From contig JAIEPW010000018.1 of the NCBI GenBank assembly GCA_019748195.1, positions 1-64,000 on the forward strand: DNA of 64,000 nt, given 5' to 3'. Source of the stretch: Bryobacteraceae bacterium. Lineage in GTDB: Bacteria; Acidobacteriota; Terriglobia; Bryobacterales; Bryobacteraceae. Under the pieces are notes generated by a model. The model saw only the letters and a program-made list of their open reading frames with translations. It had not been told where the DNA came from and searched no databases. Made by a program: the position numbers and the translations under genes. Below are positions 36,164 through 44,241 of the stretch, piece by piece (positions within the stretch are counted from its first letter, which is position 1; every line of letters begins with the position of its first letter).

Positions 36164-36410
36164 GGACTTCCTTCGAGAGCTGAACGAATATCTCGACGAG
36201 ACCGCGGACGTCTCGATGAAAAAGGAACTCGAACTTCACGTCTCCCAATGTCCCAACTGCTTCGTGGTGGTCGATACGACCAAGCAGACCTTGCGGGTGT
36301 TCAAGGGTATGGAGCCGCAGGAGATCCCCTCCACGGTGCAAACCCGGCTGATGGAAGCGTTGCAGAGAAGGATGAACTCCCGCCGGGCTACCGGAACCGC
36401 TCCTGAATAG
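36150..36410 (+). CDS. Cytoplasmic zinc-binding anti-sigma factor (ZAS)
   Basis: An 86-residue soluble protein with the ZAS signature His-x3-Cys-x2-Cys in LHVSQCPNC (residues 29-37) and the preceding FLRELNEYLDETAD helix typical of anti-sigma zinc domains. No membrane segment, so signal input must be cytoplasmic. Start is TTG at 36150 inside the end of the sigma gene, with GGGAG 9-10 nt upstream. Overlapping the sigma gene ensures matched synthesis. Its 3' end overlaps the end of addA on the other strand by 23 nt. Confidence 0.9.
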   Translation: MITCKDFLRELNEYLDETADVSMKKELELHVSQCPNCFVVVDTTKQTLRVFKGMEPQEIPSTVQTRLMEALQRRMNSRRATGTAPE

Positions 36411-39400
36411 CTTTCCATTCGCGCACCGCATCCAGGGCGTGCCGGCGATCTTCCTCGCTCATGCCGACCTCAATGGTCCGATCCTCCCGCAGCCGGTAAA
36501 TCAGCACGCGATCCGGCATCCGTCCCGCGAACTTCTCCAAAGCCATGGCATAAAGCCGCAGTTGGATCTGGTGGACTTCGTGCCGCTCGCGACCGGGGTG
36601 TCCTGTCTTGTAATCGATCAGAATCAGTTCCCCGCCTTCCTCGAACCACAGGTCAATCTGCCCTTTTAGAACCACGTCTTCGATCGCCAGCAGGAAATCG
36701 AATTCGCGTTCCAGCCGGGAAGCGCGGGCGGCGCGCCGCCCCCATTCGCTCGCGGGGAAGCGGGCAGCCAGTTCCCGGGCTTCCGGGCCGGCGTGGGGCA
36801 CTTCGTTTCCGGCCAGAAGCTCATGCACCTGTGTTCCGAGTTCGCCCGCGTCGAGCTCGCCCCAGTCCATCTCTTCACCCTGGGCTTCCCAATCGGGCTG
36901 CGTCGCCTTCAAGCCCCGGAGCCGATGGAGAAGATAAGCGGGGCGATCGGCGGCCGCAAGCGCCACCGTGGTGACTGGAACGGCCGAATCATACTGTCCG
37001 TGGACCTCGGGCTTCTCCACAATTGTGACCGCCGCCGGACCTCCGGGTGGGGCGCCCACCGCGGCCGGACCGGCCGGGATCAGAGCGGACGTTCGAGGCG
37101 TCACCCAGCCGACCTTGCCTCGCGCCCGCTCGCGCCACGGCGAGCGTCCCCGGGTGGCGGCCCAGCATAACGCAAGGTGTTCCCGCGCGCGGGTCATGGC
37201 GACATAGAGCAGACGGCTTTCCTCGGACTCCTCGCGTTCTTTCAATTCGTCCTTGGAAGCGGTGCGAATCGGATCGCTGACCGAGTTCGAGCCGAAAGGA
37301 TTCCGCCACTTCACGCCCAGTCCGAAGCGCGGCGAAAACACCAGCGCCCCGGCGCGGGAATCGCCGGAGCGGTTCATCGCCGCCAGGAAAACGACCGGAA
37401 ACTCCAGTCCCTTGGACTGGTGGATGGTCATCAACTGGACGACGTTGCCGGGGTCCGATGGGGGCGCCTCGGCTTCGACGCCGGCCGCCCGCAGCCGCCG
37501 CAGCCGATCGAGAACCGCTCCCGGCGGCTCCGCGGCGGCACTGTGCCACTGCCGCAGCAGGCTCAACAGCTTGTCAACGTTCGCCCGCTGCCGCTCTCCC
37601 AGGCCGCCTTCGTAATCGCTCGCGTCCAGAAAAGGCCGCAGCAGGCGGTCCGGCGACACCGCCTCCGCATACGGGCGCCACCTGGAAAGCAGCGCCCGAA
37701 ACTGGTCCAGCCGGAAGCGATCCTCGGGGTCCACCAGAGGCTTGCGTTGCACGTGGCGCAGCAGGGATTCATCGCCGATCCCCACCAGCGGAGATCGCAA
37801 CACCCCCGCCATGGCGATCTCATCCAGGCTGTTCGCCAGCACCGCCAGAAGGTTGATCACGTCCCGGACCTCGCGGGTTTCCAGGAAGGTGCGGCCGCCC
37901 GTGATGATCCAGGGAATCCCCGCGCGATCCAGCGCCGCGCGAATGGGGTCGAGCGCATTCAGCGTGCGCGCGAGCACCGCGCAGTCGCGATAACGCGCGA
38001 CGCCGCTTTCCAATTCCATCCCGCCCGCCAGCTCGCCGATCCGCGCGGCGATCAGCGCTGCCTCGGCTTCCTGCTCGTCATCTCCTTCGCCCACCAGGAT
38101 TTCGACGCTGGGTCCGGGCTTGTGCGCGTACTCATGCCGCGCCTCGAGAGGGCGCGACTCGATGCCGCGCAGGCCGTGACAAACCGCTTCCACCGCCTGC
38201 AGAACACCCGCCCGGCTGCGATGATTGTCGCGAAGATCGTCCACCGGTCTCCCGCTATTCTCAAGAGAAGCGCGGTACTCCGCGAACAGGCGCGGCTCGG
38301 CATGGCGGAAACCGTAAATTGACTGGTTGATGTCGCCGACGGCGAAAAACCGGTCCGGACGCCGCAGCAGGTCGAGCAGCGCCCATTGCCTCGGATTGGT
38401 GTCCTGCACCTCGTCCATCAGGATCTGATCGAAGCGGAGCCGCACCTGCTCGCGAATGTTGTCGTGCGTTTCCAGCAGCCGCACCGCGGCCTCCTCCAGG
38501 TCATCGAAATCCAGCGCGCTCAGCCCGCGCTTGCGATCCTGATACTCGGCCGCGTACCCGTCGATCAGGGACTCCAACGTGGCTCGCAGGGGCGCATGGA
38601 GAGCATCCAGGCATTCGCCCATCAGCGGCTCCATGCGCTTTTCGGTCTTGAGAAACCTGTTGAAGTCCGCGCCCGCCGTGTTGCGGCCGAGCTTGGCGCC
38701 ATTGAAGTCATATTCATGCAACAGCCGGACGTGCGCCAGGGTTGGGGACTCGCCGGCCGCGAGAAACCGGCCGATCCATTCCCGCTGCGCCGCGCTCTGC
38801 TCCTTGTCGTCGCGCGCGCGATGGGCTGCAAACGCGCGTTCCCGCGTGTCCGCCAGCAGGGTGCGCGGGACCTCCCGGCGCGGCAGCTTGGGCGCCGCGC
38901 GCATCGTATCCCACAGCTCGATCAGGCTGCCGGCCAGATCCGCCTGCCGCATATCGTCGCGCGTCGTGAGTTCCAGCGCGTCCAGCAGATCGCGCAGCCG
39001 CCTGGGATCGCGGGCGAACAACTCTTCCAGCACCGTCTCCGCGGCTTCCCGCCGCAGGCGGTCCGCGCCCGGCGGATCCAGAACCAGGAAGCGGGGGTCC
39101 ACGCCGGCCTCGGTGGCGTATTCGCGCAACATCCGGGCGCAAAAGCCGTGGATGGTGGACACCCAGGCGCGCTCCAGCGCCTGCCTCCGCTCCGGAGATC
39201 CCTCGAACCGCCGTACCAGGCGATCCTTGATTTCGGCGGCGGCTTTCTCGGTAAACGTGATCGCCAGCAGGCGCGCGGGATCCACCCCGCGCTCCTCCAC
39301 CAGCCAGGCGAATCGCTCCGTCAGGACACGTGTCTTGCCGCTGCCGGGTCCCGCCACCACGCAAACATCCTGATCCCAGCGCTCGACGGCGCGGCGTTGT

Positions 39401-39417
39401 TCAGCCGAAAGCATCAT
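36388..39417 (-). CDS. addA: AddA-like helicase-nuclease (UvrD/RecB superfamily)
   Basis: A 1009-residue SF1 DNA helicase with C-terminal nuclease. Walker A is VVAGPGSGKTR (residues 20-30), motif Ia AITFTEKAAAEIKDR, motif II ILMDEVQDTNPRQW, motif III FFAVGDINQSIYGFR, motif V VVQLMTIHQSKGLEFPVVF, and motif VI RLLYVAMTRAREHL. The C-terminal PD-(D/E)xK nuclease has LKGQIDLWFEEGGELILIDYKTG with the catalytic Asp, Asp and Lys. With AddB it unwinds and resects double-strand breaks for RecA. ATG 39417 overlaps the addB TGA. Length is shorter than B. subtilis AddA (about 1230) but all motifs are intact. Confidence 0.93.
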   Translation of the reverse strand: MMLSAEQRRAVERWDQDVCVVAGPGSGKTRVLTERFAWLVEERGVDPARLLAITFTEKAAAEIKDRLVRRFEGSPERRQALERAWVSTIHGFCARMLREYATEAGVDPRFLVLDPPGADRLRREAAETVLEELFARDPRRLRDLLDALELTTRDDMRQADLAGSLIELWDTMRAAPKLPRREVPRTLLADTRERAFAAHRARDDKEQSAAQREWIGRFLAAGESPTLAHVRLLHEYDFNGAKLGRNTAGADFNRFLKTEKRMEPLMGECLDALHAPLRATLESLIDGYAAEYQDRKRGLSALDFDDLEEAAVRLLETHDNIREQVRLRFDQILMDEVQDTNPRQWALLDLLRRPDRFFAVGDINQSIYGFRHAEPRLFAEYRASLENSGRPVDDLRDNHRSRAGVLQAVEAVCHGLRGIESRPLEARHEYAHKPGPSVEILVGEGDDEQEAEAALIAARIGELAGGMELESGVARYRDCAVLARTLNALDPIRAALDRAGIPWIITGGRTFLETREVRDVINLLAVLANSLDEIAMAGVLRSPLVGIGDESLLRHVQRKPLVDPEDRFRLDQFRALLSRWRPYAEAVSPDRLLRPFLDASDYEGGLGERQRANVDKLLSLLRQWHSAAAEPPGAVLDRLRRLRAAGVEAEAPPSDPGNVVQLMTIHQSKGLEFPVVFLAAMNRSGDSRAGALVFSPRFGLGVKWRNPFGSNSVSDPIRTASKDELKEREESEESRLLYVAMTRAREHLALCWAATRGRSPWRERARGKVGWVTPRTSALIPAGPAAVGAPPGGPAAVTIVEKPEVHGQYDSAVPVTTVALAAADRPAYLLHRLRGLKATQPDWEAQGEEMDWGELDAGELGTQVHELLAGNEVPHAGPEARELAARFPASEWGRRAARASRLEREFDFLLAIEDVVLKGQIDLWFEEGGELILIDYKTGHPGRERHEVHQIQLRLYAMALEKFAGRMPDRVLIYRLREDRTIEVGMSEEDRRHALDAVREWKAIQERFR

Positions 39418-42080
39418 GGCGCGGCGTCCTCCGCCCGCGGAGCGGCGGCCTCCTCGATGCGGCAGATATCGGCGAAGTCGCACCACTGGCATTTTGCGGT
39501 GTCCGCCGGCCGCGGCGCGATTTCGCCCCAAGCCACGGCGTCCCTCGTCTCGAGCGTGCGCCGCAAAGCCTCGTCCATCATTTCCCGCAGCACTTCCGGC
39601 TGCACGGACTCGCCCAGGTTTTCGAACCCGGCAAGGGGGATGTGCCACCCGTGCCATTCGATTTCGCCGCGCAGGCCGACATAGAACACGCCGGCGGGCT
39701 GGTACCCCAGCGTCTTCTCCGCCGCCAGCAGATACAAGCCGGCTTGTACGCGAGTCCCGTCGTGGTGCTCCCGCACGGTTTTCTTCGATTGCTTGCTGTA
39801 TTTGTAGTCGATGACCACGGCGTGATTGCCGGGTCCCGTTTCCAGGCGATCCATCCGGCCGCGGACGGCAAGCTTCTCATCCACCGCCATGACAAAAGGC
39901 TGTTCGGCGCGGCGGCTCCATCCGGCCGGGAACGAATGGTCCTGCATCAGCCGCTCCAGTTCTCGGCGCATCTGGATTCGAACCGCCTCCGTGCGATATC
40001 CGGAGATGACGTGGGCGCGGCGGCATTCCTCCTCGAACACCACCTCGAACCAATCGAATCCGAGCAGCGGCCGTTCCGTGAGCTCACGCAGAACACGATG
40101 GACAATCGAGCCTTGCAGCAGCACATCCAGGCGGTCGCGGGGGGCGGGCGGTACCGGCTTCAGCTTCAGCGTGGAGGCGCCGAAGAATTGGAACGGGCAC
40201 TGCAGGAACCTCTCCACCCCGGAGGGCGACATCGTGTGATGCTGGTCCGCGATGGAGGCCAGCAGCGCGGGTTCGGCGATCCGCGCGGGCCGCGGAGACG
40301 CCCGCGGCCGTTCCGGCCTCGGGCGCACGCGATCCGGAGCCGGGGTCCCCGCTTCCTCCAGGTAAAACGAGCGCAACTGCGGCGCCCCCTTGTCGTCATA
40401 CCGCGGATAACTCAATACGGTCCTGTGAGTAGCCCGGCTGCGAGCCAGTTCGAACAGAAACCGCTCGCTTCTCTCGCGCTCCCGGGCTACTGGCAAGGAA
40501 ACGCCCGCACGCGCAAGCTCGGTCCGGAAGGAGTCCGGCAGCAGCGGATCGGGAGCCGTGTAGCGCGGGAAATTCCGTTCGATCAACCCGCAAACGAAAA
40601 CTACCGGAAGCTCCCATTGGCGGGCTTCGTACACGTCCAGGAGGTGCACTACATTGCGCCGCAAGTCGGGAACGCGGACGGGCTCCAGCGCCGCGGCGGC
40701 GCTTGCCTTGGTCCAGAATTCCGCCAGCGTCAGGCGATCTTCTTCCGGCAGCCTGTCCGCCGTGGCGTCCAGAAGCGCCTCAAAAACGCTCGCGGCCGCC
40801 AGGCGGGATCGCCAGAGCGGCGCTTGCCGCTGACCCGCGTCGTTCAGGGTTTCCGGAACAGCCATCAGGGACCGCAGCTTGCGAAGCTCCCGAGCCCAGT
40901 TCCGCGGCACACGCGGCGATCGCCGCCACGCGTCCAGCTCCGCGATTTGCCCCAGCAGCCGATGCGCCCGGCCGGCGCCGGCGAGCGGAAAGAGTTTCTC
41001 GATTCCTTGCGCCGGCAGGATTTCGCGGCATCGATACTCGAGAACGTCTCCGGCGGCGGTTCCGCCCACTCCCGAAACCGGGGATGCCATGGCGCTGACC
41101 AGCGGATCCAGATCCCAGCCCGCGACCATCGATTCGACGATCCGGGAAAAGTAAGTCCACACCGCATGTCGGCTCAAGGGCTCCGCGAAATACGATCGCG
41201 CCGGGACGCCGAATCGCTCGAGCGCCGCCTCCAGCGCGGGAACGTACGGATCGCGGCTGCGAACCACCACTCCGATTTCGCGGAACAGACGCCCGGCTCC
41301 GGCCTCGTTCAAAATCTGCCTGGCGATCTCGTCGACTTCCTCCGCCATCGTGCGAGCTTCAAACACCGCCACCTCAGCCGCCCTTCGCGAGGGTTCACAC
41401 GCCTCCTCCACGAAGCCGGCGTTCCGGAACGCGGCGAGCGCTGGCGCGGCATCGGCGGAATCGGGCAGCGTGACCGTGAGGCTCGCGTGGGACGCCGCCG
41501 CGAGCAGCACTTGCAGCTCGGGCTGGGAGAATGCGAAGAATCCGTCCAGGAAAATGCGCCGCGGGACTACCGCTCCCTGACGCAGCGCGTCCGCGGCGGC
41601 GGCGAGCTGCCGGTGCCGCGGCGGGACATCCCGCGCGGCCAGGGAGCGATCCACTTCCAGGTAGACCTCGGCCAGGGAGCACGGTACGGGTCCCCGCGCC
41701 AGTGTAGCGAAGCGAGCCGCGCTGCAGCCCGCGCTCGACAGCTCGCTAATCGCCGAGGCGGCCTGCTCCACGAATCCCGGGAAGTCGCGAACCGCTTCAA
41801 AGGCGGGAAGGCGAAGTTCCGCGAGCGCGGCGGAGACGGCCGCGGCGATGTCCGCCGGCGTGGCGGCCGGAGTTCGCGCATGGGTGGCCACGAATTGCGA
41901 CAAAGTTTGGATCTGGGAAGGCCGGATCGCGTCTCCGGCCCGCGCCAGTTCATGGCGAAAATGTACCGCCATGGTGGCCGTGGGGACCAGGAGGAGCGCA
42001 TCCGCCTGACCGCGAAATCGCTTCAGCAGCGCAGTGGACTTTCCGGAGCCAGGTGGGCCCGTGAGCAACAGCTTGTCCAA
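39414..42080 (-). CDS. addB: AddB-like nuclease subunit with Fe-S cluster
   Basis: An 888-residue partner of AddA. Walker A is near the very N-terminus (LLTGPPGSGKSTALLKRF, residues 5-22). The C-terminal PD-(D/E)xK nuclease has AVRGRMDRLE and VVIDYKYSKQSKK. Three cysteines, CQWCDFADIC, close the protein and with an upstream Cys would hold the 4Fe-4S cluster described for AddB. The start is TTG at 42080: TATACT lies 6 nt before it and the Walker strand begins at once. In the upstream extension to 42152 nothing is conserved. Confidence 0.9.
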   Translation of the reverse strand: MDKLLLTGPPGSGKSTALLKRFRGQADALLLVPTATMAVHFRHELARAGDAIRPSQIQTLSQFVATHARTPAATPADIAAAVSAALAELRLPAFEAVRDFPGFVEQAASAISELSSAGCSAARFATLARGPVPCSLAEVYLEVDRSLAARDVPPRHRQLAAAADALRQGAVVPRRIFLDGFFAFSQPELQVLLAAASHASLTVTLPDSADAAPALAAFRNAGFVEEACEPSRRAAEVAVFEARTMAEEVDEIARQILNEAGAGRLFREIGVVVRSRDPYVPALEAALERFGVPARSYFAEPLSRHAVWTYFSRIVESMVAGWDLDPLVSAMASPVSGVGGTAAGDVLEYRCREILPAQGIEKLFPLAGAGRAHRLLGQIAELDAWRRSPRVPRNWARELRKLRSLMAVPETLNDAGQRQAPLWRSRLAAASVFEALLDATADRLPEEDRLTLAEFWTKASAAAALEPVRVPDLRRNVVHLLDVYEARQWELPVVFVCGLIERNFPRYTAPDPLLPDSFRTELARAGVSLPVARERERSERFLFELARSRATHRTVLSYPRYDDKGAPQLRSFYLEEAGTPAPDRVRPRPERPRASPRPARIAEPALLASIADQHHTMSPSGVERFLQCPFQFFGASTLKLKPVPPAPRDRLDVLLQGSIVHRVLRELTERPLLGFDWFEVVFEEECRRAHVISGYRTEAVRIQMRRELERLMQDHSFPAGWSRRAEQPFVMAVDEKLAVRGRMDRLETGPGNHAVVIDYKYSKQSKKTVREHHDGTRVQAGLYLLAAEKTLGYQPAGVFYVGLRGEIEWHGWHIPLAGFENLGESVQPEVLREMMDEALRRTLETRDAVAWGEIAPRPADTAKCQWCDFADICRIEEAAAPRAEDAAP

Positions 42081-42086
42081 GCAGCC

Positions 42087-42092
42087 AGTATA
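42087..42092 (-). promoter_or_regulatory. -10 box, leaderless type, addBA
   Basis: TATACT on the minus strand, 6 nt (GGCTGC) before the TTG start at 42080 and just past the stop of the 92-aa gene. Confidence 0.6.
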
Positions 42093-42094
42093 GA

Positions 42095-42373
42095 TCAGAG
42101 CATATCGCTGAGCACGGCGCGGATGCGCAGGCGCTCCGCGGGTATGCCGCATCGTCCCAGGGCGCGGGCGACCTCACTCAGCCGGGCTGAAAACGCCGGG
42201 AATTGGACGCGGGTGCCGGGTTGCCCGTGGTAGATCTCGGGGTTAATCGGGAAAGACAGCTCTGCCAGACTGTCCAGCAAGTCCTCGAGGTCGCGGGCGG
42301 GAACCTCGACGGACAACAGAAGCAACTCGCCTTCTGAGCTGCTGAGAACCGAATCCAGGGCGGCAACACTCAT
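42095..42373 (-). CDS. Conserved-looking small protein, 92 aa
   Basis: A 92-residue soluble, acidic protein with alternating strands and helices (SEGELLLLSVEVPARDLEDLLDSL ... TRVQFPAFSARLSEVARALGRCG). ATG 42373 has a textbook TAGGAGGTT Shine-Dalgarno 4-8 nt upstream, which is rare in this window. It lies immediately upstream of addB and downstream of a structured RNA with a terminator. I do not recognise the family; the beta-alpha-beta look could be a small ACT-like or ferredoxin-like fold (guess). Confidence 0.7.
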   Translation of the reverse strand: MSVAALDSVLSSSEGELLLLSVEVPARDLEDLLDSLAELSFPINPEIYHGQPGTRVQFPAFSARLSEVARALGRCGIPAERLRIRAVLSDML

Positions 42374-42421
42374 CCGAACCTCCTAAACCGTGGGGAAACA
42401 TCCGCCGGCGGCATCGGACAG

Positions 42422-42451
42422 AAAAAAACCCTGAGGTAGATCACCTCAGGG
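42422..42451 (-). terminator. Rho-independent terminator / attenuator hairpin
   Basis: Minus strand: CCCTGAGGT (42451-42443) pairs with ACCTCAGGG (42437-42429) in a 9-bp perfect stem with a 5-nt loop, followed by seven T (42428-42422). It lies 49 nt before the ATG of the 92-aa gene. It can end either the upstream sigma/Spy operon or a short leader RNA. Confidence 0.85.
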
Positions 42452-42551
42452 CTTTCAAACTTTGAAGACCGATCCACCTTTAGCACTTTTTATCGTGGTT
42501 GCAAGTAGCTGATTCCGCTGAACAAACTCGGAATCTAAATCACTCCACGTC
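42422..42551 (-). ncRNA. Candidate structured small RNA or attenuator leader, about 130 nt
   Basis: The 226-nt gap between two minus-strand genes is A+T-rich for this genome and full of inverted repeats. Predicted RNA (start about 42551) contains GATTCCG/CGGAATC, a 7-bp stem with an 11-nt loop (42511-42535), a CCAC/GTGG pair (about 42474-42499), a CTTCAAA/TTTGAAG-like palindrome (42452-42467) and the terminator hairpin. No tRNA-, T-box-, 6S- or SRP-like core sequence is seen. Either a free-standing sRNA or a terminator-based riboswitch/attenuator for the 92-aa gene and perhaps addBA. Confidence 0.5.
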
Positions 42552-42557
42552 AGTCTT

Positions 42558-42587
42558 AGTCTAACATTGGCCCGGACAGGAAAGCAA
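42558..42587 (-). promoter_or_regulatory. Candidate promoter of the structured RNA
   Basis: Minus strand: TTGCTT (42587-42582), 18-nt spacer, TAGACT (42563-42558). The predicted start falls near 42551. Confidence 0.4.
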
Positions 42588-42599
42588 TAGGACGATTGC

Positions 42600-42980
42600 C
42601 TACCGGACCTTCATGTCGGCCAGCATACGCTCGAATTTCTTCTTCTGTTCCGCGTCCAGGATCTCCAGGATGCGAGTCTTCCCGGAGGCTCGAACATCCG
42701 CAAGCTGATCCTCTAAGCTCTTGTAATACATGGTGTAATCTTCGAGCACCGCCGTCAGTTGTCCAGCCTGTTCCGGCGACAGGTTCAACTCCGACTTGAA
42801 CTTCTGAAGAAAAATCTGCTTATTGTCTTCCGTCCAGGCCGGACCGGCCGGGGCAACACGCACCTTGGATTGCAACCCCAGCCGCATGGTCAGCGCCCCG
42901 GCGATGGCGCCGGAGGCGAAGACGAGCAGCAAGGTAGTGAGAACTCTGGGGTTCTGCCAGGGCGAGCGGTCTGGCTGCAT
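42600..42980 (-). CDS. Spy/CpxP-like periplasmic protein
   Basis: A 126-residue protein with one N-terminal membrane/signal helix (VLTTLLLVFASGAIAGALTM, about 13-32) followed by a helical periplasmic region. LNLSPEQAGQLTAVLEDY and ILEILDAEQKKKFERML are the paired LTxxQ-like helices of the Spy/CpxP/CnrX (heavy-metal sensor) family. Third gene after an ECF sigma factor and its anti-sigma partner (7-nt gap). In CnrX/ZraP-type systems such proteins sense envelope stress or metals for the anti-sigma factor; that is the likely role here. Confidence 0.85.
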   Translation of the reverse strand: MQPDRSPWQNPRVLTTLLLVFASGAIAGALTMRLGLQSKVRVAPAGPAWTEDNKQIFLQKFKSELNLSPEQAGQLTAVLEDYTMYYKSLEDQLADVRASGKTRILEILDAEQKKKFERMLADMKVR

Positions 42981-42987
42981 CTTCAGA

Positions 42988-43458
42988 TTACTGCTCCTGA
43001 TACGATGCCAGGTTCACGAGAACCGCATCCCGGTTTCGCGGACGGATATCGCCCAACACCGGCGCGGGGCCGTCTTCTCCCAGCAAATCAATCGTTTCCG
43101 GAACGCTAAGCGTCAACTCGTCGCCGGGTTCATTGGAGATCATCCACCCGCCCATCAGCAGCACCAGCGCGAACGAGGCCAGCGCCAGGCGCTGCGCGAA
43201 ACCCGATTCCAGGAACGAATACCAGACGGAAGTGCCTTGCGCTTCGATGCGATCCATCACCCGCGCGTAAAACCCGGGGGTCGGCTCCACGCCTTCGGCC
43301 TTCAAGGACTTCAGCGACTGGCCGAGCATTCGCATCTGCCCGACCTGTTTTGCCGCCGAGGCGTCCGCCGAGAGCCGCGTCTCGATTTCGTGCTTCAGAT
43401 CGCGGCTAGCGGACCCGCTCAAATACTGCTCGAGATGGTCCTTGACAAACTCATCCAT
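42988..43458 (-). CDS. Membrane anti-sigma factor
   Basis: A 156-residue single-pass inner-membrane protein. Cytoplasmic N-terminus of about 85 residues (MDEFVKDHLEQYLSGS...), one transmembrane helix (RLALASFALVLLMGGWMI, about 89-106) and a short periplasmic tail. This is the layout of ECF anti-sigma factors, though without a ZAS zinc motif. It lies between the sigma gene (126-nt gap) and the Spy-like gene, which supports the role. The function is inferred from topology and position. Confidence 0.8.
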   Translation of the reverse strand: MDEFVKDHLEQYLSGSASRDLKHEIETRLSADASAAKQVGQMRMLGQSLKSLKAEGVEPTPGFYARVMDRIEAQGTSVWYSFLESGFAQRLALASFALVLLMGGWMISNEPGDELTLSVPETIDLLGEDGPAPVLGDIRPRNRDAVLVNLASYQEQ

Positions 43459-43584
43459 AGCTTCCTTCCCTCAAACCACACTCAATCGCCGGTAAGCGAT
43501 TGTCTTAGCGTCCACGGATCTTTCCGCTGAACTCTCTCGAAAGAGCCGGCGCTGTCCGTTGTGACTCATCATGCTATCAAACCT

Positions 43585-44241
43585 TCAGGCGCGGCCGATG
43601 CCCAGGCGCTGTGCCGCCTTCAACAGCTTCTGCCGCGTCCGGAACAGCTTCACTTTAATCGTATTCTCATTCATTCCCGTCATGGCGGACAACTCCTCCA
43701 CGGAGTGCCCTTCCACTTCCTTCAGCAGGATCAGGTTGCGATCCTCCTCGGAAAGTTTCGACAAAAGCTTCATCAGCAGATCCCGGTCCGCCAGCGACAC
43801 GTCCGCCGGACGGGCCTGATCCACGGCCGGCTCCGACGCTTCCATCCGCTGCGCATCTTCCACCGAGAAATCGCTCTCGTAAACCAGCTTCCGCACCCGC
43901 TTCTTGCGCAGATAGTCGTAGCACTCATTTACCGTGATCTTGTAGATCCAGGTGAGCAGGCTGCTGCGGAAGTCGAAGTTCTTAATCGAAAAGTAGATCT
44001 TCGAGAACACCTGCTGCGCGATGTCCTCCGCGTCGTTGTGGTTGCGGAGGATGCCGTAGATGATCGAATACACCTTGGACTGATAGCGTTCGACAATTTC
44101 TCGGAACGCCAGTTCGTCGCGGGCTTGTACGCGCCGGACGAGGGCCGCCTCCTCAGTGTTCTTGTAGTCCACCTTGGGTGATTTAGTCCGGGTCCCGTCA
44201 CCCGCCGCCGGGAATGGTAATGATCCGCTCCAGCCGTTCAT
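43585..44241 (-). CDS. RNA polymerase ECF sigma factor
   Basis: A 218-residue ECF sigma factor. Region 2: FREIVERYQSKVYSIIYGIL, then HNDAEDIAQQVFSKIYFSI, then FRSSLLTWIYKITVNECYDYLRK. Region 4: KEVEGHSVEELSAMTGMNENTIKVKLFRTRQKLLKA. It heads a sigma, anti-sigma, Spy-like operon. The ATG at 44241 lies shortly after an ECF-type promoter motif, suggesting autoregulation. The N-terminal 20 residues are hydrophilic and may not be structured; a later start cannot be excluded. Confidence 0.94.
   Translation of the reverse strand: MNGWSGSLPFPAAGDGTRTKSPKVDYKNTEEAALVRRVQARDELAFREIVERYQSKVYSIIYGILRNHNDAEDIAQQVFSKIYFSIKNFDFRSSLLTWIYKITVNECYDYLRKKRVRKLVYESDFSVEDAQRMEASEPAVDQARPADVSLADRDLLMKLLSKLSEEDRNLILLKEVEGHSVEELSAMTGMNENTIKVKLFRTRQKLLKAAQRLGIGRA

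Follow-up and report, generated by a model that had tools for sequence, protein, structure and literature searches.

A putative SAM-II long-loop riboswitch upstream of a small gene family with a predicted PII-like fold in Bryobacteraceae

Leader layout and identity of the RNA core

The window analysed here is a 64,000-nucleotide stretch of the genome of a Bryobacteraceae bacterium. On its minus strand, a gap lies between a Spy-like gene (126 aa, end at 42600) and an open reading frame of 92 aa (42373–42095). With high confidence in the explanation as a whole, the gap is read here as the 5′ leader of the 92-aa gene. A candidate promoter (42558–42587, minus strand) consists of a −35 element TTGCTT (42587–42582), an 18-nt spacer and an extended −10 element TGT TAGACT (hexamer 42563–42558), and would start transcription near 42551. 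At the other end of the gap, a putative intrinsic terminator (42422–42455, minus strand) has a perfect 9-bp stem formed by CCCTGAGGT (42451–42443) and ACCTCAGGG (42437–42429), with lower A-T pairs reaching 42455, and is followed by seven T (42428–42422). The T run is separated by 48 nt from the ATG (42373) of the 92-aa frame, whose Shine-Dalgarno sequence, AGGAGG (42379–42384), reads as a strong one. Direct reading thus bears out the minus-strand promoter, the 7-bp perfect stem and the perfect 9-bp terminator with seven T described in an earlier note on this DNA, as well as the position of the terminator shortly before a gene with a strong Shine-Dalgarno sequence. A generic promoter and terminator pattern scan of 42000–43100 listed neither element of the leader; the terminator may have been missed because its stem continues into the T tract. 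Folded alone, the 178-nt leader gave a z value of −2.04, with 7 of 200 shuffles folding equally well, a modest result that is unconvincing by itself. The observation was confirmed by sequence comparison, namely the Rfam model RF01726, a custom covariance model and a conserved promoter-like block, and not by single-sequence folding.

At Rfam gathering cut-offs, the whole window gave no match. When the gap (247 nt) was searched against Rfam with lenient settings, one clear match emerged, RF01726 (SAM-II long loop), which spans 42470–42554 on the minus strand with 39.9 bits and an E-value of 1.6e-6 and covers the full length of the model (1–60 of 60); the next match had an E-value of 0.98. The aptamer is missed at default settings because its score lies below the curated Rfam cut-off of 44 bits. 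The syntenic gaps of three relatives scored 43.7 (G017), 42.4 (G002) and 40.7 bits (G019), and that of G018 (L019), in which the aptamer is degenerate, gave no RF01726 match. A custom covariance model, R1, built from 44 relatives with the window excluded, matched the 64-kb window at 42551–42470 with 82.0 bits and an E-value of 9.5e-23, the sole match at E ≤ 10. Together, the RF01726 and R1 matches support the earlier proposal of a riboswitch or attenuator and supersede the accompanying statement that no known RNA core was recognised: by sequence and structure, the core is a SAM-II (long loop) aptamer, and the window RNA presumably binds SAM.

At E ≤ 0.1, RF01726 matched 50 of 121 genomes, of which 11 (11/121) scored above the cut-off; 4 of 14 control genomes matched as well, one of them above the cut-off. 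With only 11 of the 50 carriers above it, the Rfam cut-off hides most SAM-II long loops in this Bryobacterales family. A class-wide search at E ≤ 0.001 matched 30 of 299 genomes, that is, 29 of the window’s family and G058, together with 1 of 14 control genomes, a Bacteroides. SAM-I was found in 2 of 41 genomes; RF00521 gave no match in 41 genomes, which is uninformative since all 14 control genomes were likewise silent. The RNA shares with SAM-II long loops the core, P1, the long loop and the 3′ TGCTAAA strand, along the full-length model. Table 1 of Weinberg et al. 2010 (PMC2864571) gives the taxa of that class as Bacteroidetes and marine, whereas the RNA is common here in a Bryobacterales family (Acidobacteriota), mostly below the Rfam cut-off, and has a covarying hairpin in its long loop and an undescribed target gene.

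The structure was assessed in an alignment (A4) of 44 of the 52 RF01726 hits; the window, L113, L065, L051, L037, L055 and the weak hits L114 and L115 were left out. Stem P1 (42494–42549, minus strand), formed by CGTGG (42549–42545) and CCACG (42498–42494), is paired in 99.5% of cells in the 44 rows, and four of its five pairs are invariant. The two strands of the putative H-type pseudoknot (42477–42504, minus strand) are TTGCAA (42504–42499) and TGCTAAAGG (42485–42477); in A4, the GCA/UGC pairs of P2 are formed in 99.2% and the P2a-like GC/GGC pairs in 96.6% of cells, and they are mostly invariant. Since the pairs of P1 and the pseudoknot hardly vary, they support the structure by their presence and contribute little covariation. 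The covariation is found in the long-loop hairpin (42511–42535, minus strand), a 7-bp stem of GATTCCG (42535–42529) and CGGAATC (42517–42511) with an 11-nt loop. A pattern parse, which handled 46 of 50 RNAs and left 4 unparsed, found this hairpin in 44 of the 46 (window and L055 counted among those parsed), L055 and L065 having short loops. All six tested pairs of the hairpin change on both sides in A4, with 86.4% of cells paired. The structure as a whole shows 57 cells with two-sided changes, all in the hairpin, against 20.3 in shuffles (0/500 reach this value); its covariation score is 0.281, compared with 0.153 in shuffles (0/500) and at most 0.119 in slid controls. A simple count of the pairs that change on both sides, 6 against 5.6, shows no excess (325/500 shuffles reach it). 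Of the checks that the earlier note had named, an Rfam/Infernal search thus recovers RF01726 in its lenient form and below the cut-off, and a covariance analysis of relatives yields a conserved core with more two-sided changes in the hairpin than any shuffle. The lack of conservation and covariation that the note would have taken as a refutation is not what the relatives show.

According to PMC6061858, third-strand U residues of the SAM-V pocket face the sulfonium of SAM, and the pocket further comprises two U:A.U triples, a U that lies at the adenine end and, at the aminoacyl end, an A:A pair; binding by SAM-II is called virtually identical to that by SAM-V. In the window, GATTTA (42536–42541, minus strand) matches the third strand of the pocket triplex and, as mapped by sequence, would take its role; its TTTA is invariant in the 44 rows of A4. 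By the same mapping, the RNA has the pocket letters of SAM-V, from the third-strand U residues and the U:A.U triples to the A at the aminoacyl end; apart from position 18, none of these letters (UUU; UU; U and AAA) varies in A4. SAM-V is described as translational and as having a P3 stem, whereas most leaders here carry a terminator and have A or C at position 18. This position corresponds to the leading A of the A:A pair; among 49 RNAs it holds A 28 times, C 20 times and T once, and the window has C.

The A-to-C change might mean that the pocket has shifted to another ligand, e.g., SAH or another adenosyl compound, a reading that draws on the C found in 20 of the 49 RNAs, the window included, and in 7 of the 8 with a G two bases after P1. 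Such a shift is nevertheless quite unlikely: neither the U residues facing the sulfonium nor the paired A residues vary, and relatives with A and relatives with C would control the same gene family. As a separate observation, a G two bases after P1 (window position 42543, A4 column 9) is accompanied by C at the pocket position before UUGCAA (42505, column 53) in 7 of 8 RNAs, window included, and RNAs with another base at the former position have this C in 10 of 38 cases. This co-occurrence may reflect a tertiary G-C pair or a tuned pocket. The 5′ halves of the aptamers of L037 and L113 are deviant.

Association of the RNA with one gene family

A first protein search found homologues of the 92-aa gene (42095–42373, minus strand; family A1, with a predicted PII-like ferredoxin fold) in 22 of 61 genomes, own genome counted, and RF01726 gave the same 22 plus G058. 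A homologue follows 49 of the 52 RF01726 hits (the window being one of the 49) on the same strand, the exceptions being L055, from G058 of another family, and the weak L114 and L115. Likewise, the same gene lies downstream in 10 of the 11 genomes scoring above the Rfam cut-off, G058 being the other. The locus in G058 (L055/L085; G058:C280:14234-14294) belongs to another family of the class; its SAM-II match of 48.6 bits adjoins a 1059-aa TonB/carboxypeptidase-like frame, named by eye, and not the small gene.

The association was then scored in 200 genomes drawn from the window’s family, its own genome counted, with R1 for the RNA and a protein profile for the gene. Each matched 118 of the 200 genomes; both were present in 114 and neither in 78, with 4 genomes having the RNA only and 4 the protein only (Fisher p 3.8e-45, kinship ignored). 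The gene lies directly downstream of the RNA, on the same strand and within 400 nt, for 115 of 124 hits. For strong copies the figure is 115 of 116, and the remaining one (G713) is 56 nt from a contig end. The nine hits lacking the gene are that of G713, three degenerate ones from one genus (g19) and five weak ones at E 0.006–0.0095. The RNA is thus shown to be tied near-exclusively to one gene family. In a draw of 396 genomes of the phylum, which held few of the family and for which 12 candidates per genome were scored, only the window’s own genome matched family A1 among the matches listed.

The protein also occurs without the RNA. In G774 (C381; L191) and G780 (C417; L192), the promoter-like block and the gene are kept and no aptamer is seen; judged from their sequences, these are seemingly natural riboswitch-free versions from which the aptamer was deleted. 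The gene of G597 lies directly after a Spy-like reading frame, no RNA was seen at the small-gene locus of G773, and G087 has a second paralogue without the RNA. G740 (C65 and C67) carries two copies of the riboswitch and small gene in one genome. One stop falls inside the matched stretch in 19 of 120 protein matches; the gene of the window has none.

The three g19 loci (L186–L188; G018:C382:11688-11764, G735:C223:8619-8695 and G748:C251:2197-2273) hold degenerate SAM-II aptamers that keep the promoter-like block and the terminator, with no gene of the family downstream and a converging radical-SAM-like frame, so named for its CxxxCxxC motif. Across these genomes, 76 of 77 columns of the aptamer part are identical, as are 74 of 108 in the stretch after the terminator. 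By these features, the RNA of g19 is perhaps a riboswitch turned sRNA.

The genes beyond the small gene are not part of this association. In the window, an addB-like frame (39414–42152 as listed, minus strand; the true start is uncertain, probably near 42082) and then an addA-like frame (36388–39657, minus strand) follow. Among the loci listed, the same pair recurs only in G002 (L099), after a Memo-like frame (named by eye); the following genes differ in the other relatives, which makes addBA look like a passenger. Of the two parts of the earlier note’s placement, upstream of a 92-aa gene and addBA, it is the small gene that is the conserved partner; addBA is probably just co-transcribed.

On the other side, an ECF sigma – possible anti-sigma – Spy-like operon occupies 42600–44241 of the window, with an LTXXQ match just below the cut-off; Spy-like relatives occur in 58 of 61 genomes, own genome counted. 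The hairpin could in principle be nothing other than the 3′ terminator of this operon, the rest of the gap being spacer, given that the Spy-like gene shares the strand, with its end at 42600, and that a Spy-like neighbour is also found in G017, G019, G002 and G018 (a comparison drawing on the plus-strand loci L004, L006, L009 and L019). As a full account, this highly improbable reading is refuted by the aptamer, which is kept nearly base by base in relatives, including several with other upstream genes (among the loci listed), and by the small gene downstream in relatives; some Spy transcripts may still end here. The leader reading also fits the promoter-like block, which stays with the aptamer across the relatives whose upstream sequences were compared: counting the window, 43 of 49 loci have a TTG-N19..22-TAnnnT block at a matching distance, whereas shuffles give 1.0 on average and 5 at most.

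Expression platform

A simple terminator lies between aptamer and gene in 39 of 49 leaders, window counted, and four further leaders (L067, L077, L033 and L112) have a long-loop terminator set by hand. Three leaders (L054, L063 and L045) have no terminator by the rule applied, although the gene is distant, and in L064, L110 and L111 the gene starts right at the 3′ end of the aptamer. In the larger set, 16 of 115 copies have a gene profile match that starts no more than about 30 nt from the aptamer, which leaves little room for a terminator. These short-spaced copies are apparently a translational form, in which UAAAGG would be able to act as the Shine-Dalgarno sequence. One aptamer would thus serve transcriptional and, apparently, translational platforms inside one clade.

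A proposed antiterminator (42434–42479, minus strand) would pair AGGTGGATC (42479–42471) with GATCTACCT (42442–42434) over 9 bp, including one G-U. The duplex has a predicted energy of −15.7 kcal/mol, equalled by 1.7% of 300 hairpin shuffles that keep the stem (p 0.017). Complementarity between the 3′ strand of the aptamer and the terminator hairpin was tested in 44 of the 49 leaders, L054, L045, L064, L110 and L111 having no hairpin by rule; the hairpins of L067, L077, L033, L112 and L063 were set by hand, that of L063 being without a T run. The summed duplex energy is −614.8 kcal/mol, against −487.4 (sd 18.2) in shuffles, none of 300 reaching it. CCUUU occurs in 19 of the 44 hairpins, whereas stem-preserving shuffles average 1.8, and a GCCUUU..GC-like complement of GCUAAAGGC is present in 16 of 44; the hairpin of the window instead sets GAUCUACCU against AGGUGGAUC. 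Taken singly, 13 of 44 leaders are significant at p ≤ 0.05. Swapping hairpins between leaders gave an equally good result in 126 of 5000 permutations, a weak signal from related leaders that are not independent, and the test is less decisive because one of the strands is nearly invariant.

The arrangement suggests a SAM-OFF attenuator. Transcription from near 42551 would first produce the SAM-II long-loop aptamer. At high SAM, its 3′ strand (UGCUAAAGG) would be held in the pseudoknot, the hairpin would fold into an intrinsic terminator, releasing a transcript of roughly 130 nt. At low SAM, the free 3′ strand would pair with the terminator hairpin, and read-through would allow the small PII-like protein to be made. 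Because the 3′ strand cannot be in the pseudoknot and the antiterminator simultaneously, SAM binding should favour termination; the OFF direction and the antiterminator are to this extent inferred. The α-proteobacterial SAM-II RNAs of Agrobacterium tumefaciens metA and Sinorhizobium meliloti metZ offer a precedent, since the accounts in PMC1273637 and PMC9373788 report terminators behind the aptamers, report or propose OFF logic, and give the same order of a promoter a few nucleotides before P1, aptamer and terminator. Those RNAs precede methionine genes in these accounts, whereas the SAM-II RNA of the window precedes the gene of a small, predicted PII-like protein, and this gene is not among the known methionine or SAM genes.

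The terminated leader could itself be the main product, a trans-acting sRNA in which the aptamer is a SAM-sensitive or vestigial module. The promoter-like block and terminator that bracket the RNA would suit such a role, as would the g19 aptamers, which keep both elements without the gene and are better conserved than the stretch after the terminator; moreover, PMC9373788 discusses SAM-II sRNAs of S. meliloti as possibly trans-acting. Against it stands the placement of one gene family directly after 115 of 116 strong copies, with the remaining one at a contig end, and the copies with a gene within 30 nt have little room for a terminator. This reading is considered unlikely. Very probably, then, the RNA is a terminator-controlled SAM-II riboswitch in the leader of the small gene, which high SAM would turn off.

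The small protein and its possible role

Alignment A1 contains 48 of the 49 small-gene loci (L051 has no start by rule), and a further alignment, A5, contains 47, L065 also being out. The 48 sequences are 31–49% identical to the window protein, and LE..L, FP.NP...H (FPxNPxxxH) and V.FPA (VxFPA) are invariant or nearly so. Neither Pfam nor NCBIfam gave a match to the window protein at E ≤ 1, the best match among solved structures searched by sequence has an E-value of 0.13, and a viral fold library gave no match at E ≤ 0.001. Scattered weak matches to 19 Pfam families were obtained for the 48 members, the most frequent being Pro-kuma_activ with 5 members, and NCBIfam and PHROGs searches of A1 relatives gave scattered weak matches only. 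The Pro-kumamolisin activation domain (PF09286) was rejected as an assignment: for the 5 matching members (of 48), E-values range up to 1, the best being 4.4e-5, hhalign gives 0.8%, and ten members scanned singly yielded one match, just above the cut-off (24.2 vs 23.5). For these comparisons, 14 of 15 PII loci (A2) and 5 of 7 prodomains (A3) were aligned.

AlphaFold2 models of two A1 members, the window protein (pLDDT 88.8) and a second one (87.1), have a β-α-β-β-α-β order. The best PDB match in Foldseek is a PII protein for both models (E 9.3e-4, TM 0.55; and 1.8e-3, TM 0.49), with aspartokinase ACT domains also among the matches. In VIA-align, 47 of 50 and 42 of 50 rows listed are PII, CPII, PstA, DUF3240 or PotN, the best being 1gnk_B (Z 10.3, rmsd 3.2 over 73 residues; second model Z 9.1, rmsd 4.5 over 76). 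Further rows with a ferredoxin-like fold, a NIF3-family protein at 9.4 for the first model and a V/A-ATPase subunit (8.6) and spliceosome chains (8.5) for the second, are within 1 Z of the best and hence tied with it. The models thus firmly predict a ferredoxin-like fold, which is likely PII-like. As in PII and PII-like proteins (GlnK, CPII, PstA, DUF3240, PotN), a variable insert between strands 2 and 3 occupies the place of the T-loop, but A1 has no P-II Pfam match and has FPxNPxxxH and VxFPA motifs of its own. P-II, DUF190 and DUF3240 are absent from the 19 Pfam families with matches in the 48 members, and hhalign of A1 against the PII of relatives gives 7.3%, so that sequence profiles do not support membership and an assignment as canonical PII was dropped. 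Canonical P-II (PF00543) was matched in 24 of 26 genomes, with none in the window’s genome (99.67% complete) or in G010. One group of A1 members, for example L056, L066 and L068, has a longer insert at the T-loop position and a C-terminal tail (PAPAGAPYVSR-like), and may be a second functional class.

Some proteins that bind or cleave SAM compounds have the PII fold, as PMC12255297 sets out for SAM lyase and SAM-AMP lyase; with these, A1 shares the predicted fold and a SAM connection. The catalytic Glu that this source places at the T-loop end of SAM lyase has no invariant counterpart by sequence in A1, where the window has Gln and some members have D, T, A or R; an assignment as SAM lyase was rejected accordingly. 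With its predicted PII-like fold, the protein is more suggestive of a regulator than of an enzyme. The small protein would be a product of SAM shortage, and its likeliest role, by inference, would be that of a regulator or sensor in the SAM or methionine economy.

The riboswitch class is known; its lineage, its target family, the hairpin-extended loop and the two platforms are new. The literature on SAM-II long loops, with subscription journals mostly outside the scope of the search, yielded no description of this RNA in Acidobacteriota or of the small-gene family. Nothing was found that joins PII-like proteins, S-adenosylmethionine and a riboswitch, or a PII-like protein, adenine nucleotide, SbtB and SAM. 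These results extend SAM-II long loops to Acidobacteriota. Riboswitches are strong hints to gene function, and the near one-to-one link therefore ties an orphan gene family to SAM. A more speculative picture, rather less likely than not, is that of a two-layer SAM-starvation circuit across the family, in which the SAM-II RNA sensor would set the level of a new PII-like protein sensor. This protein would itself bind SAM or another adenosyl ligand and adjust methylation or the supply of methionine; in one genus, the switch without its gene would have become a constitutively terminated sRNA. If this is true, a whole bacterial family would use its SAM-II riboswitch almost solely for one new PII-like signalling family.
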